The notes under the pieces are model-generated. The model saw nothing but the letters and a program-made list of their open reading frames with translations, made no database searches and was not told where the DNA came from. A stretch of DNA of 64,000 nucleotides. Origin: Glutamicibacter protophormiae. GTDB lineage: Bacteria > Actinomycetota > Actinomycetes > Actinomycetales > Micrococcaceae. The position numbers and the translations under genes are program-made. Positions 45,024-49,296 of the stretch are shown here, in pieces (position 1 is the first letter of the stretch; each line of letters opens with the position of its first letter). Location of the stretch: contig NZ_BMPH01000003.1 of the NCBI RefSeq assembly GCF_014647495.1, forward strand, positions 248,001 through 312,000, given 5' to 3'.

Positions 45024-45620
45024 TTAGTTCTCGTTCCTCGAGTCCGATTCCTCGTCGAGCTGTTCGCTCCTGGTTTTCACCTTCGGATGCGCTGCCAATT
45101 GCTCTATCGGCGGGGCCGGGTACTTCTCGGCTTCGGCGCCGTGGAATTCGATGATGCTGTCATCCGGCCCGGTCTTCTGTTCCTGGCCAAGGTTACTTTC
45201 AGAGGAGACACCGCGACTTTGGTGCCGAGAAATTTTCGTAGGTTCTGAGCTGGTGCGTTCTGCATTGCTGCCTGCTTCGAGGTCGACGAGGACCCGAACC
45301 ATCTCTACGACTGCTTTCCGCGATTTAGGCGAGAGGTTGTCTGCGCCTGGTGGGAGTTCGTCTGCGAGTGGCGGGCCCGGGACTGGTTGTCCCGCTGCTG
45401 TGAACGCCACAGAATCCTCAACGCCGGCAAGCCAGGCAATCGCACGAAGGGTTTGTTCGCCTGGAACAGACTTGTACGTGTTGCTCCGAATTTGGTTCAA
45501 AGTCGTGTAGGTGATTTTGAGACCAGCCTCTTGAGCCTTGAAGGCAAGTTGCCGGGCAGACGTTTGGTGTCGCTCGACCGCCATCTCTATGAGGCCCTTG
45601 AGGGAATCTGTATCGTTCAC
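45024..45620 (-). CDS. Probable phage repressor (HTH, XRE-like)
   Basis: The product of about 198 residues has an N-terminal HTH domain (KGLIEMAVERHQTSARQLAFKAQEAG and TYTTLNQIRSNTYKSVPGEQTLRAIAWLAGV), close to immunity repressors of actinophages. A Pro-rich link and a long polar, probably disordered tail follow. GTG 45620 has GGAAAG about 8 nt upstream; the GTG at 45626 is too near. It is read leftward, divergent from the XRE gene, with three related 9-bp sites between, the layout of a lysis-lysogeny switch. It lacks an S24 peptidase domain, so release may depend on the ImmA protein or the antirepressor. Confidence 0.78.
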   Translation of the reverse strand: MNDTDSLKGLIEMAVERHQTSARQLAFKAQEAGLKITYTTLNQIRSNTYKSVPGEQTLRAIAWLAGVEDSVAFTAAGQPVPGPPLADELPPGADNLSPKSRKAVVEMVRVLVDLEAGSNAERTSSEPTKISRHQSRGVSSESNLGQEQKTGPDDSIIEFHGAEAEKYPAPPIEQLAAHPKVKTRSEQLDEESDSRNEN

Positions 45621-45682
45621 AACCACGACTTTCCTAGATGAACTCTCGCTTGCTCAATTCCCTGAACTTTGCAGGTGAAAAG

Positions 45683-45771
45683 TAACAAGTTCATCATCCC
45701 AATAATTTCGCGGGTAAATCCACTTTTCGACTTGACAACTTGGTGAGTAGTGAATGATAGTTAACTTGTCA
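45683..45771. promoter_or_regulatory. Switch region: early promoter and three operator half-sites
   Basis: TTGACA (45732-45737) and GATAGT (45756-45761), 18 bp apart, form a rightward promoter. Three copies of a TGACAAGTT-like word lie at 45683-45691, 45733-45741 (over the -35) and 45763-45771 (reversed, after the -10). A protein on the last two would block the early promoter. Confidence 0.6.
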
Positions 45772-45846
45772 GATCGAAAAGTGGAAGGAATACTGGTTAT
45801 GCGTGGAACGCGTCGTCATCTCAATCTCGTTCGAAAGGAGAGCTGG

Positions 45847-46122
45847 ATGCGTGTTATCGATCCCGCTGCGCTGAGGCGCAAGCGGATAAATCAGCGGTTC
45901 AGCCAGCGTGACCTAGCTGGCCTGGTCCGTCGCTCGCAGGCTACGATCCACCAGCTGGAGACCGGCAAGATGAAGACCCTCACCGAGGATCTGGCTCTGT
46001 TGATCGCTGCTCGGTTATTCACCGACTGGGAGGACTTGTTCATCCTTGAGGAGCATGAAGTTGCGCCTCGTGTGACAAGTGGGGGATCATCCGGCGTCAA
46101 CTCGGCGGTGAACGCGGCATGA
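45847..46122 (+). CDS. XRE-family regulator (Cro-like)
   Basis: The product of about 91 residues is mostly one HTH domain: RRKRINQRFSQRDLAGLVRRSQATIHQLETGKMKTLTEDLALLIAARL. ATG 45847 was chosen for AAAGGAG 5 nt upstream; the frame is open from 45754, but that start would overlap the promoter. It is the first rightward gene after the switch, the position of Cro or of an early activator. Its TGA overlaps the next start (ATGA). Confidence 0.82.
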   Translation: MRVIDPAALRRKRINQRFSQRDLAGLVRRSQATIHQLETGKMKTLTEDLALLIAARLFTDWEDLFILEEHEVAPRVTSGGSSGVNSAVNAA

Positions 46123-46868
46123 GTGTCGACGAAGCCAAGAGCAACCTGCAAGCTCAGCTCGACTCCCAGGCGCTCGCCGCCCAGGTAACTGTCTCCCGGG
46201 ATGAACTTGAAAAGTTGCTCGATTGGGCGGACTCCGCCAGTCGAACTATCGGCGAGTTCGTCGCCTGGGCCAATTCGTGCCCGGCAAACGAAGAGCCCCC
46301 AGCAGTTGCACCTGCTGAGGGCGGATCGGGAGTAGGCACGCTGTGGATTCCCGAGTCGGCAACGCTAGACGATCTTGTGTCAGCTCTCGGTCCCGGCGAG
46401 TTTCCGACCATCGATCAGGATATGTCCGAGGTCGTCAAAAGTTTCGAAGATGGCTCCCTTTATCCGCTCGACGTCGATCGTGTTGTCCAGGAGGGTTGCC
46501 GCGTAGTTGAAAGAGATCTGGCTAGCCCTCGTGATGAGGTACGAGACAGCCGGGCGGTCATCCTCTGTAGGAATGAAGACGAAGCGGAAAGCGGCGTGCT
46601 TGTTAAGAAGTTCGCACACTGCAACGTCAAGGGCAGCAAAGATCAGGTCCGCGTTTGCTTCAGCAGTGATGACGTCGGCTCCGTTGAGATTCATTTTGGC
46701 CATCAGATTTCCCTCTCGGTAGTTGGAGCACCGGATGGTGCGGGTGTTGGAACCTCTGAGTCTACCGAGAGGGGTCAAACTCCGACCTTGTCGGAAAAAG
46801 AAATGCCCTCAGCAGTTGCACCTGCCGAGGGCGACGAAACCAAAAACCAGTCTGCAAGAAAGGTGTGA
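46119..46868 (+). CDS. Hypothetical early phage protein with an embedded antisense gene
   Basis: The frame of 249 codons starts with a plausible helical protein (MSVDEAKSNLQAQLDSQ, VSRDELEKLLDWADSAS). Residues from about 105 to 205 run antisense to a better-looking minus-strand gene and are less protein-like. The segment PAVAPAEG occurs twice, at the two hairpins 510 bp apart. The original gene may have been an 80-residue protein that was lengthened in frame by the insert. It starts with ATGA overlap to the XRE gene. Confidence 0.45.
   Translation: MSVDEAKSNLQAQLDSQALAAQVTVSRDELEKLLDWADSASRTIGEFVAWANSCPANEEPPAVAPAEGGSGVGTLWIPESATLDDLVSALGPGEFPTIDQDMSEVVKSFEDGSLYPLDVDRVVQEGCRVVERDLASPRDEVRDSRAVILCRNEDEAESGVLVKKFAHCNVKGSKDQVRVCFSSDDVGSVEIHFGHQISLSVVGAPDGAGVGTSESTERGQTPTLSEKEMPSAVAPAEGDETKNQSARKV
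46295..46322 (-). terminator. Hairpin copy 1, downstream of the antisense gene
   Basis: 11-bp stem with one wobble pair (46295-46305 with 46312-46322), loop TTGCAC. Read leftward it is followed by TCTTCGTTT, so it can end the leftward gene. A near copy lies at 46805-46832. Confidence 0.6.
46380..46703 (-). CDS. Leftward hypothetical gene nested in the early operon
   Basis: The 107-residue product (MAKMNLNGADVITAEANADLIFAALDVAVCELL, FVFIPTEDDRPAVSYLITRA) has regular hydrophobic spacing and better codon use than the opposing frame. ATG 46703 has GAGGG 7 nt upstream. It is bounded by two copies of one hairpin that both work as leftward terminators, so it has the form of a self-contained unit (a moron) turned against the operon. 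I do not recognise the family. It may be expressed in the lysogen. Confidence 0.6.
   Translation of the reverse strand: MAKMNLNGADVITAEANADLIFAALDVAVCELLNKHAAFRFVFIPTEDDRPAVSYLITRASQISFNYAATLLDNTIDVERIKGAIFETFDDLGHILIDGRKLAGTES
46711..46773 (-). promoter_or_regulatory. 12-bp inverted repeat around the antisense gene's promoter
   Basis: CCCTCTCGGTAG (46711-46722) and CTACCGAGAGGG (46762-46773) are perfect inverted copies 39 bp apart. Leftward, TAGACT overlaps the distal arm, and the proximal arm contains the ribosome site. It could be an operator pair, or an RNA stem that hides the ribosome site. Confidence 0.45.
46805..46832 (-). terminator. Hairpin copy 2, upstream of the antisense gene
   Basis: 11-bp stem with one mismatch pair (46805-46815 with 46822-46832), loop TTGCAC. 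Leftward it is followed by ATTTCTTTTT. It is almost the same sequence as copy 1, exactly 510 bp away. Confidence 0.6.
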
Positions 46869-46873
46869 TTTCA

Positions 46874-47167
46874 ATGCCCAGTGTAATCGGTTTCCCGATC
46901 CAGGGTGCAGGAAACTGCCCCGGCACTATCGACGTGGAACCAGGCGTGCCTGTCGAATCCCGTCCCGTCCGGCTCCTGTACACCGTTGCCGATACCGCGG
47001 AACTGCTATCCATTGGCCTGTCTTCGGTCTACGACCTGATCAACGCCGGCGACTTGCCAAAGGTCATGGTCGGCACCCGCGGCAAGACCACTCGCATCGC
47101 CGCGACTGACATCCAGGCATACATCGACAACCAGAGAGTAGTGGCGGAGTCATCGTGGGCAATGTGA
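46874..47167 (+). CDS. Excisionase-type helix-turn-helix protein
   Basis: The product of about 97 residues ends in a MerR/excisionase-like domain: YTVADTAELLSIGLSSVYDLINAGDLPKVMVG then TTRIAATDIQAYIDNQR. This is the helix-turn-helix_17 pattern of phage excisionases and replication-control proteins. ATG 46874 has AAAGG about 10 nt upstream; GTG 46865 is the alternative. It overlaps the next gene by 13 bp. It may direct excision with the integrase. Confidence 0.75.
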   Translation: MPSVIGFPIQGAGNCPGTIDVEPGVPVESRPVRLLYTVADTAELLSIGLSSVYDLINAGDLPKVMVGTRGKTTRIAATDIQAYIDNQRVVAESSWAM

Positions 47168-47517
47168 ACCGAACCTACGCCGACGGCGGCAGGGTGACCG
47201 GCAGCTCGTCTAAGGGCAAGGTCTTGATCATTCCGGAGGGCCGTGGGCTCGCCGTCGCTGAGCTGGATATCAAGTGGCGCCACTACCCGAAGGCCGACAA
47301 GGCGATCCAGGCGCGCAAGGCTGCGGCGTTATGGGCGAACTACTTCTACCGGGCCGCGACCGCCGACGTGTTTGTCGACATGGGGTCGATCAGTCCGGCC
47401 GATCCGGACGGCAAGGGCGGGATCTTCCTTGGCAGGAAGCGCACCCACGACTTCACTGTTCTGGAGGATTTGCCTGAGCCGGTGCCAGCAGCGTCCCTAT
47501 TTGGGGGTGGACGCTGA
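47155..47517 (+). CDS. Hypothetical phage protein
   Basis: The 120-residue product has a Ser/Gly-rich start and a central region WRHYPKADKAIQARKAAALWANYFYRAATADVFVDMG, which is probably helical. No motif is recognised. GTG start inside the end of the excisionase-like gene; the stop TGA overlaps the next ATG. Confidence 0.65.
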   Translation: MGNVNRTYADGGRVTGSSSKGKVLIIPEGRGLAVAELDIKWRHYPKADKAIQARKAAALWANYFYRAATADVFVDMGSISPADPDGKGGIFLGRKRTHDFTVLEDLPEPVPAASLFGGGR

Positions 47518-47726: not shown

Positions 47727-47784
47727 CCGCTGGCACCACACACTCTCTTTTTTCTTTCTCTCGACACACCTTATGGAGGATTTC

Positions 47785-49296
47785 GTGTCTCAAAAACCAG
47801 GTGAACTCAGAATACTGCCGGTCTCGGCCATCCACCCGGACCCGAAGAACCCGCGCGAAGACATGGGCGACATCGACGGCCTGGCGCATGAGCTGAAGAC
47901 CATCGGCCAGTTCGACTCGATCACCGTGTACCCGCATCCGGAGCTCGACGGGGACTACATGATCCAAGGTGGCCACCGCCGCCACGCCGCCGCGCTGCGC
48001 GCCGGCCTGACCGAGCTCAAGTGCGAGATCGTGCCTTCCCCGGAGAACGCCGCACTCGACTTGTACACCGAGGCCCTGTCTACCGGCACCAACCACATGC
48101 CGCTCGACAGCATGGGCCAGTCCAAGTCGCTGCAGGGCATGCTGACCGAGGGGAAGTCCGAGGCATGGATCTCGAAGAACTTCAACATCCCCAAAGCAGA
48201 GGTGAAGCCCCGCGCCCGCCTGGCCGACAACCCGCGGGTCGCTCAGATCCACGCCCGCGGCACCATCGACCTGCTCAGCGCCGCCGCAGTCCTCGACGTC
48301 GAGGAAGAGACTGGCGATACCAGCATTTTCGACGGCATTGTTGACGATCTGGAAGCTTCCCACTGGAAGAAGGACCAGATGGAAGTGAACCGTCTGATCG
48401 AGCAGAAGAAGCAGAACGCCCGCCGCGACACCCTCCGCGCCGAGCTGACCGAGCAGGGCGCCGTCGAAATCGACTCGCAGAACCGCTACAGCGGCAAGTG
48501 GGCCAAGACCGAGCAGGTGCTCGACGTGGCCGGCCATGTGGCGGCGGGGCATCAGTTCGATGTGAGCACCCCGGATTCCGTGGACTGGTGGGAGAAATCC
48601 AAGGCCGCGGCCAAGGCGAAGGCCTCCCCGGAAGAGAAGGCGCGCCGGGAGAACATCCGTCGCCTGGACGGCGTCCTACCGATCGCGCAGCGCGCCCGCC
48701 ACAAGTTCGTGATCGACAAGATCCGCGACCGCAAGGGCATCGAGGACCGCAACGCGCGCGGCCTGCTGGTTTCCATGATCTTCCAGGAAGCCCGCGGCGA
48801 CTACGAGACGTTTAAGCGTCAAGCCATTGGCGAGGCCGTGGGCCTCCCGTTCCCGGAACTCGAAGATGATCAGACAAACCGAGCCCCGGAGGTGGAGGAT
48901 GCCCGGAAACGGTGGGAGGCCGAGGCGCGCAAGGTAGCGCTGGGCTTGACCCTGCAGCAGCTTTCGCTACTCCTGGCCTACGTGCCGGTGGCAATCACAG
49001 ACCGGAACCTGGGCAAGACGAATTGGTACATGCGCGACTCGTGGGAGAAGGAGAACCGCTGGGCTCCGCTCTCGCGCTGGTACCAGCAGCTGATCGACTT
49101 CGCCGGATACCTGCCGTCCGAGGACGAAGCAGAAATGATCCGGATCGCACAGCAGACCCGCGAGAACGCGCTCAACGACGTTCACCTGAACACGGCGACC
49201 TGCAAGAACTGCAACCAGGAAGTCGTCTCCGACAAGCACTGGGCCGGGATTTGCGCCGAGTGCGCGCCGGCCATCGACGGAATCGAGGTGGCCTAA
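47785..49296 (+). CDS. ParB-like nuclease/partition-domain protein with C-terminal zinc ribbon
   Basis: The 503-residue product starts with a ParB/Srx fold: LRILPVSAIHPDPKNPRED, then MIQGGHRRHAAALRAGL (GGHRR at 62-66) and the HTH-like SQSKSLQGML region with IDLLSAAAVLDVEE. A long charged middle follows, and the end has a four-Cys ribbon CKNCNQEV and CAECAP. GTG 47785 has GGAGG 5 nt upstream. No ParA is nearby, so plasmid-type partition is unlikely; a role in phage DNA handling or transcription is more likely. Confidence 0.85.
   Translation: MSQKPGELRILPVSAIHPDPKNPREDMGDIDGLAHELKTIGQFDSITVYPHPELDGDYMIQGGHRRHAAALRAGLTELKCEIVPSPENAALDLYTEALSTGTNHMPLDSMGQSKSLQGMLTEGKSEAWISKNFNIPKAEVKPRARLADNPRVAQIHARGTIDLLSAAAVLDVEEETGDTSIFDGIVDDLEASHWKKDQMEVNRLIEQKKQNARRDTLRAELTEQGAVEIDSQNRYSGKWAKTEQVLDVAGHVAAGHQFDVSTPDSVDWWEKSKAAAKAKASPEEKARRENIRRLDGVLPIAQRARHKFVIDKIRDRKGIEDRNARGLLVSMIFQEARGDYETFKRQAIGEAVGLPFPELEDDQTNRAPEVEDARKRWEAEARKVALGLTLQQLSLLLAYVPVAITDRNLGKTNWYMRDSWEKENRWAPLSRWYQQLIDFAGYLPSEDEAEMIRIAQQTRENALNDVHLNTATCKNCNQEVVSDKHWAGICAECAPAIDGIEVA

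Follow-up and report, generated by a model that had tools for sequence, protein, structure and literature searches.

Interchangeable antisense gene cassettes and an open sense frame in a probable early operon of temperate Glutamicibacter-type phages

Temperate phages of the Glutamicibacter type probably carry, at one position of their early operon, a set of interchangeable leftward cassettes that resemble phage morons and lie in a noncontiguous-operon layout; the cassettes would be expressed in the lysogen, and the rightward frame through them would be kept open for ribosomes. The shared leader, the mostly unrelated cargoes, the empty loci, the leftward hairpins and the openness of the frame are read from the sequences themselves, and the steps of expression are what we infer from them. 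Leftward genes were found at the same operon position in 13 of the 18 loci compared, 17 genes in all. The reference locus lies in a window of 64,000 nucleotides from Glutamicibacter protophormiae, which is part of a 3.83 Mb genome (G000). The stretch concerned is in a prophage, and is also present in IMG/VR as a viral contig of 44.6 kb with proteins 100% identical. The first-pass annotation of the window had described its leftward gene and the flanking hairpins; it missed that this unit is one of an interchangeable set with a common leader, and that openness of the rightward frame characterises this set.

The window locus and its relatives

The locus begins with a repressor-like gene on the minus strand, followed by an inverted repeat with promoter-like sites and then, on the plus strand, by a Cro-like gene, a frame of 249 aa, an excisionase-like gene and a ParB-like gene. 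The features of the window are as follows.

45024..45626, minus strand: immunity-repressor-like gene (context); phrog_12831, transcriptional repressor, E 2.5e-17
45719..45785, no strand: inverted repeat and sigma-70-like sites between the repressor and the cro-like gene; repeat and promoter scan
45850..46122, plus strand: Cro-like HTH gene, gene 1 of the early operon; Pfam HTH_3/HTH_31, PHROG repressor, DNA similarity to Cro genes of Gordonia phages
46119..46868, plus strand: rightward frame, 249 aa; begins on the cro stop (ATGA overlap), open across the entire antisense gene, codons in exact register with the antisense codons
46295..46322, minus strand: left hairpin, leftward-terminator-like, downstream of the antisense gene
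46380..46703, minus strand: antisense cassette gene, 107 codons; TTA, CTA and TCA codons absent
46711..46717, minus strand: Shine-Dalgarno sequence GAGAGGG, 7 nt upstream of the ATG and contained in the right arm of the leader's inverted repeat
46711..46722, minus strand: arm of the leader inverted repeat that holds the Shine-Dalgarno sequence; repeat search and leader alignment
46728..46741, minus strand: inner stem-loop of the leader with a 5-bp stem; 2 pairs with compensatory changes among cassettes
46759..46764, minus strand: TAGACT, proposed −10 hexamer; invariant in 13 of 13 type A leaders
46762..46773, minus strand: second arm of the leader inverted repeat; repeat search and leader alignment
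46805..46832, minus strand: right hairpin, leftward-terminator-like; single copy in loci without a cassette
46865..47167, plus strand: excisionase-like HTH gene, next in the early operon; Pfam HTH_17 9.8e-13, phrog_66 1.6e-5
47773..49296, plus strand: ParB-like gene (context; used to find relatives); phrog_6218 1.6e-31

Since the 249-aa frame lies directly downstream of the Cro-like gene, its placement in the early operon by the first-pass annotation was reasonable. The leftward gene of 107 codons with its own ribosome site was confirmed as well. The interval 45719-45785 is probably the early promoter/operator region; its inverted repeat, between repressor and cro, has 23-nt arms of 87% complementarity and is likely to be the operator. 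A weak Rfam match to a microRNA in the same interval is probably due to chance, and the Rfam scan gave two matches only, both far below the gathering score. The start codon of the Cro-like gene at 45850 was chosen by us. This gene matched 42 records of Gordonia phages, and in the three maps inspected the genes that follow it carry other annotations.

A DNA search of 18 genomes of the genus gave prophage stretches in G002, G004, G005, G008 and G012, and viral contigs were found by searches with the leader and with the excisionase-like and ParB-like proteins. After removal of copies and of weakly matching contigs 18 loci were compared. L040, L041, L053 and L054 are one sequence and were counted once, L043 belongs to the L067 contig and L055 to the L070 contig, and the weak matches L057-L060 and L071-L085 were left out of the counts. 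Thirteen of the leftward genes follow a leader that we call A: one each in the window, G004, L040/L053, L043/L067 and L055, and two each in G005, L042, L068 and L069. The other four (G008, G012, L051 and L087) follow a second leader of the same design, leader B. The exact pattern of leader A was found in 3 of 395 genomes of the family, all three in the same genus; the pattern is a strict one, and the leader variants in L068 and L069 would escape it.

Loci with one hairpin and no insert, such as the first-pass annotation had envisaged, are G002, L056, L065 and L066, and L052 is a relic in which part of a leader is left. In L066 the rightward gene stops right after the hairpin (105 aa). Its homologues in G004, L067 and L069 (57, 64 and 66% identity to L066) continue through the leftward cargo, with two different cargoes among the three, and L068 has part of an L066-type rightward gene only (40%). 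The view of the first-pass annotation that an autonomous-looking leftward unit lengthens a short early gene was thus borne out.

Two further observations concern the surroundings of the site. In L065 (IMGVR_UViG_2775506731_000002) the DNA is 91-94% identical to the window from position 47473 rightward and has no DNA similarity left of the hairpin; an exchange of the immunity region seems to have taken place beside the site of the hairpin. In L042 (2411-2887, minus strand) and L067 (near 2029-2523) leftward genes of 158 and 164 aa without leader A directly follow cro. Judged by eye they have a hydrophobic N-terminus, and the rightward frames there are also tightly joined.

The leader, the hairpins and the cargoes

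The key shared part of the cassettes, absent from the first-pass annotation, is the leader with its 12-bp inverted repeat (46711-46722 / 46762-46773 in the window). The 13 sequences of leader A have a mean column identity of 83%, and TAGACTC is invariant in all 13, the bases outside the stem included. The outer stem of 12 bp is paired in 96% of the cells, with all 12 pairs in nine leaders and one or two mispairs in the other four; no compensatory change was found in it among the 13. In the inner stem, which is missing in L055, two pairs show compensatory changes, in three sequences each. When the alignment was shuffled 500 times the covariation score and the number of doubly changed cells were reached by none of the shuffles, and the number of pairs changed on both sides (2) was reached by 186. 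The structure from RNAalifold deviated slightly from this one, and its covariation term was small. Folding was stronger than in shuffled sequences for the window leader (type A, z −4.85) and the G012 leader (type B, z −3.34), and with the left arm removed the z values were 0.31 and −0.31.

In leader A and leader B alike the Shine-Dalgarno sequence is part of the right arm. Actinobacterial −10 elements have the form TAnnnT, which TAGACT (A) and TAGGAT (B) fit; no conserved −35 was seen by eye upstream of TAGACT in the type A leaders. A transcript that starts from TAGACT or TAGGAT would lack the left arm, so its start site would be free. The leader stem probably closes the start site on transcripts that enter from upstream and leaves the cassette's own transcript open.

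The two hairpins of the window, 28 nt each and 510 nt apart, differ at 2 positions and are part of a direct repeat of 42 nt (46282-46323 / 46792-46833, 86% identical), which is not due to chance given its self-BLAST E of 1.9e-8. The first-pass annotation had called both leftward terminators, and both score as such. The terminator scan by itself proves nothing, because it gave 4 sites in total and the shuffles a mean of 3.7; the support is comparative. All 25 hairpins of the 18 loci have 5-8 T in the 9 bases on their leftward side (6 and 7 for the two of the window) and 0-2 on the rightward side. As the T-rich tails are leftward only, the right-hand hairpin should shield the cassette from leftward transcripts that begin further to the right, and a promoter within the spacer or the leader is therefore likely. 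The distal members of three pairs (G005-1, L068-1 and L069-1) are without such a hairpin directly upstream of their leader.

The left-side copy of the hairpin is present in the window, G004, G005, L042 (second cassette), L067, L068 and L069. Six loci (G008, G012, L051, L087, L053 and L055) have the right-hand hairpin only and none downstream of the cargo; an origin of the unit by duplication of a terminator, as first suggested, is therefore not established. That the spacing keeps the frame holds in the window and is common, not universal: where the copies directly flank one cassette they are 510, 378, 363 and 378 nt apart in four of five cases, all multiples of 3, and 632 in the fifth (L042-2), which is not. 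Two cassettes separate the copies in two further cases, at spacings of 1759 and 1111 nt, again not multiples of 3. The octapeptide PAVAPAEG, said to be encoded twice, is present in full in one place only: the two copies are PPAVAPAEG and PSAVAPAEG, which have AVAPAEG in common.

The cargoes behind the common leader are mostly unrelated proteins of 62, 66, 77, 79, 98, 101, 105, 107, 108, 183-203 and 294 aa. Some recur at other places. A 98-aa cargo lies nearest the excisionase-like gene in L068 (L068-2) and furthest from it in L069 (L069-1), with 98% identity; the 79-aa cargo of G004 is the second of the two in L069; and G012 and L087 have an identical cargo gene. The gene had a lower G+C content than the 2 kb to its right in 12 of the 13 cassettes measured (of the 17), for example 0.546 against 0.629 in the window; the exception is L040.

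Two cargoes matched the Pfam family DUF7882 (PF25355), L055 with 4.2e-9 and L068-2 with 4.6e-10, and L042-1 fell below the cut-off (0.0016). The antisense protein of the window had no match in Pfam, DUF7882 included, nor in PHROGs, NCBIfam or PADLOC. It was without a relative in phages, plasmids and the other 17 of the 18 genus genomes and, in a close-relative search, in GTDB contigs, and IMG/VR gave its own contig only. Public phage and plasmid records gave nothing useful for this protein, the rightward protein, the leader, the excisionase-like protein or a DUF7882 cargo; one of these searches returned 10 matches at chance level (best E 0.5). For the other cargoes nothing informative was found in Pfam (all except L087 and L069-1, which are copies) or in NCBIfam, PADLOC and PHROGs (most of them). 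In Pfam the cargoes of G008, G012, L051, L043 and L069-2 gave sub-threshold matches only, all to G012. No transposase match was found among the cargoes scanned with Pfam, PHROGs and NCBIfam. The PADLOC defence models gave one weak match only for 10 proteins (E 0.021), and we do not claim a defence role. The predicted structure of the window protein was uninformative (pLDDT 45); that of a DUF7882 cargo had a pLDDT of 84 but no PDB match at E 0.001.

The type B cargoes (L038/L036/L051/L087 type; 183-203 aa) have, by eye, a hydrophobic stretch at or near the start that resembles a membrane anchor. Superinfection-exclusion proteins often begin with a hydrophobic stretch of this kind. The site is a collector of small prophage genes, DUF7882 proteins among them, and our guess is that these may have functions specific to the lysogen, for instance in exclusion or defence.

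The open rightward frame and the strand under constraint

The plus-strand frame of the window (46119-46868) is open throughout and reads through the whole leftward gene, as had been noted in the first-pass annotation. Because its codons lie exactly opposite the leftward codons, a rightward stop could arise in the window only from a leftward TTA, CTA or TCA. These codons were wholly absent from 12 of the 13 genes behind leader A. The rightward frame that enters the cassette was stop-free across 15 of the 17 cassettes, and across all 17 when one closely spaced restart was admitted (L042-2 and G008); L042-2 has two stops in the complementary frame. The operon was tightly joined: 26 of 43 joins were 4-base overlaps and the jumps were between −35 and +5 in 17 of the 18 loci, as counted by a greedy search permitting −43 to +30. 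The remaining locus, the empty L056, has a 25-nt jump (+25) without a coupled start.

The chance of an open frame was calculated by redrawing synonymous codons for each leftward protein, with the codon usage of 13 phage genes (4579 codons) for which homologues exist among the loci compared. Each cargo family was represented by one cassette, 12 of the 17; L043, L069-1, L069-2, L051 and L087 were dropped. A single frame crossed 10 of the 12 non-redundant cassettes and 3.1 were expected (P 1.4e-6), or 1.8 if the entering phase was taken as random (P 2.6e-8). With restarts allowed all 12 were crossed against 7.2 expected (P 8e-4), a weaker excess. A natural control came from the rest of the same loci, in 28 genes of 60-120 aa lying on the expected strand: the complementary frame was open in 2 of these and in 8 of the 9 non-redundant leader A cassettes of the same size (Fisher 1e-5). 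The control genes are mechanical ORFs, and false ones among them may raise the stop rate; the expectation of 3.1 is independent of them. TTA, CTA and TCA occurred 2 times against 21.8 expected, and the other rare codons 77 times against 70.7, near expectation. A previous codon test, with a reference of mechanical ORFs and all 13 type A genes, redundancy included, had given 2 observed and 25 expected (P 4e-9); the non-redundant tests are preferred.

It could be argued that the rightward frame is under no selection, codon bias having removed TTA, CTA and TCA so that the mirror frame is open for free. We regard this as unlikely. A strict codon reference, at a rate of 1.0%, is in its favour, since most single cassettes then become unremarkable, with an open-frame chance of about 0.3-0.5. 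The flanked cassette L042-2, which violates the spacing rule, can be put on the same side. At the strict rate, 1097 non-redundant codons should include about 11 of the three codons, and only 2 were seen. The joint crossing of 10 of 12 cassettes, the few open control genes and the undepleted other rare codons all speak against it, as does the spacing of the hairpins by a multiple of 3 in 4 of 5 directly flanked cassettes. Moreover, the type B genes use the three codons freely (16 in 579 codons of 3 genes), and yet in three of the four (G012, L051 and L087) the linking frame is open in another phase. Openness seems therefore to be kept as such, and not as a by-product of codon avoidance.

If on the other hand the rightward frame made a long protein that the phage needs, with the leftward gene overprinted on it or not expressed, the ATGA coupling with which the frame begins in most loci, the absence of stops in 15 of 17 cassettes and the positive codon score of the rightward frame (0.221 bits per codon in the window) would be explained. 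We hold this to be quite improbable, for in the two informative pairs of homologous cassettes the leftward protein was the better conserved one. G005-1 and L043 were 66% identical in the leftward and 40% in the rightward protein, G004 and L069-2 84% and 62%, and the differences peaked at the third of the leftward codon positions (18, 12 and 33 at positions 1, 2 and 3 in the former pair; 7, 7 and 26 in the latter). L068-2 and L069-1 are too close to decide (98 and 95%), and G012 and L051 are saturated (22 and 26%). In 12 of the 15 cassettes scored the leftward frame had the higher codon score, by a small margin, when compared with its rightward complement; L042-2, G008 and L051 were the exceptions. 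The three cassette-free loci with a rightward gene at this place carry a version of 33-105 aa from which the middle is absent. Conservation of a long rightward protein, which the first-pass annotation had named as part of the contrary outcome, was not seen, its middle not being conserved among the relatives compared. From the two informative pairs, constraint at the level of the protein appears to act on the leftward gene, and the rightward frame appears to be held open with its sequence little constrained. The remaining alternative, in which the hairpins are a mere duplicated bidirectional terminator or a recombination scar and the leftward gene is spurious, would suit the orphan status of the window protein in phages, plasmids, the other 17 genus genomes and GTDB contigs. 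We consider it very remote: the window leader is common to 12 other cassettes, other cargoes have homologues with third-position divergence, two of them reach DUF7882, and the T-rich hairpin tails are leftward only.

Proposed role in the phage life cycle and likeness to known systems

We thus favour interchangeable cassettes with a lysogeny-specific leftward gene and a rightward frame that is left passable. In the lysogen the early promoter would be repressed and the cassette would be transcribed leftward from a promoter within its own leader. At induction early polymerase would cross the cassette head-on and shut it down, which would make the cassette gene lysogeny-specific by its layout. The rightward frame would be kept stop-free and in the register of the upstream gene so as to let ribosomes on the early mRNA travel across the insert and pass on to the gene that follows. 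Without translation, the antisense stretch would expose the downstream genes to Rho-dependent polarity; Rho is encoded in the genome of the window, so an untranslated insert could have this effect. Openness may serve protection from polarity, or else the delivery of ribosomes to the next start site, and the sequence of the rightward protein itself would be of little importance.

A phage moron is an extra gene between genes that are adjacent in relatives, with its own terminator and a distinct G+C content. The cassettes are similar in being absent from the four one-hairpin loci (G002, L056, L065 and L066) and in their G+C content, below that of the neighbourhood in 12 of the 13 measured. The window gene has a downstream leftward hairpin with a T tail, whereas six other cassette loci have no hairpin downstream of the cargo. 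As for a promoter of their own, TAGACT is invariant in the type A leaders, with no conserved −35. Unlike morons, the cassettes are antisense to the operon, and the upstream gene passes through them in frame and stop-free. In IS10 and IS50 terminal inverted repeats mask the transposase start in read-through RNA. The leader repeat could likewise hide a start site on transcripts from outside; here, however, no transposase was found, and both arms lie within 63 nt before one gene and not at the ends of an element.

In the S. aureus phage 80alpha the antisense layout of the tha/ith noncontiguous operon is described as tying immunity to the life cycle (PMC11087260). The likeness to a noncontiguous operon is in genes opposite to and inside an operon, seen here in the sequence as 17 leftward genes in rightward ORF chains. 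In contrast to tha/ith (PMC11087260, PMC9694928), the operon that hosts the insert would here be that of early lytic growth, and the antisense cargoes can replace one another behind a common leader; the sense frame appears to be kept open through the cargo, a feature which the passages cited from these two papers do not mention. The start-associated sequence (SAS) of cluster K mycobacteriophages and its extended form (ESAS) are, as far as the cited part of that work goes, conserved elements, built of a Shine-Dalgarno core and inverted repeats, that precede many unrelated genes and for whose hairpins the authors report little support (PMC3203893). The 13-nt SAS (GGGATAGGAGCCC), which stands before the start codon, was not found in the window even when 2 mismatches were allowed (0 matches). 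The present leader differs from SAS/ESAS, as described there, in its sequence, in that one arm holds the Shine-Dalgarno sequence and the arms can pair in RNA, and in preceding antisense genes.

Noncontiguous operons are recognised in temperate phages, and the passages cited from PMC11087260 and PMC9694928 do not explain how a long antisense insert avoids polarity. Titles and abstract openings of the literature on phage noncontiguous operons, antisense coupling and Rho, morons and DUF7882 did not contain a stop-free sense frame through interchangeable antisense cassettes, which is not proof of absence. What would be new relative to the known noncontiguous operons is this combination, interchangeable antisense cassettes with the sense frame kept open. 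Annotation of these phages calls for caution, since an annotator could accept the long ORF on the rightward strand and overlook the leftward gene, which is the conserved one. The solution common to these mostly unrelated cargoes is a sense frame that is open and tightly joined at its ends. We put forward, as a proposal whose chances we judge to be even, that antisense inserts in phage lytic operons are selected for a stop-free opposite strand in register with the gene that hosts the insert, and could be termed frame-transparent antisense genes. If this is true, one strand of such a gene codes for the protein and the other is a mere track for ribosomes, and it would be a general condition for the tolerance of antisense cargo in translated operons.
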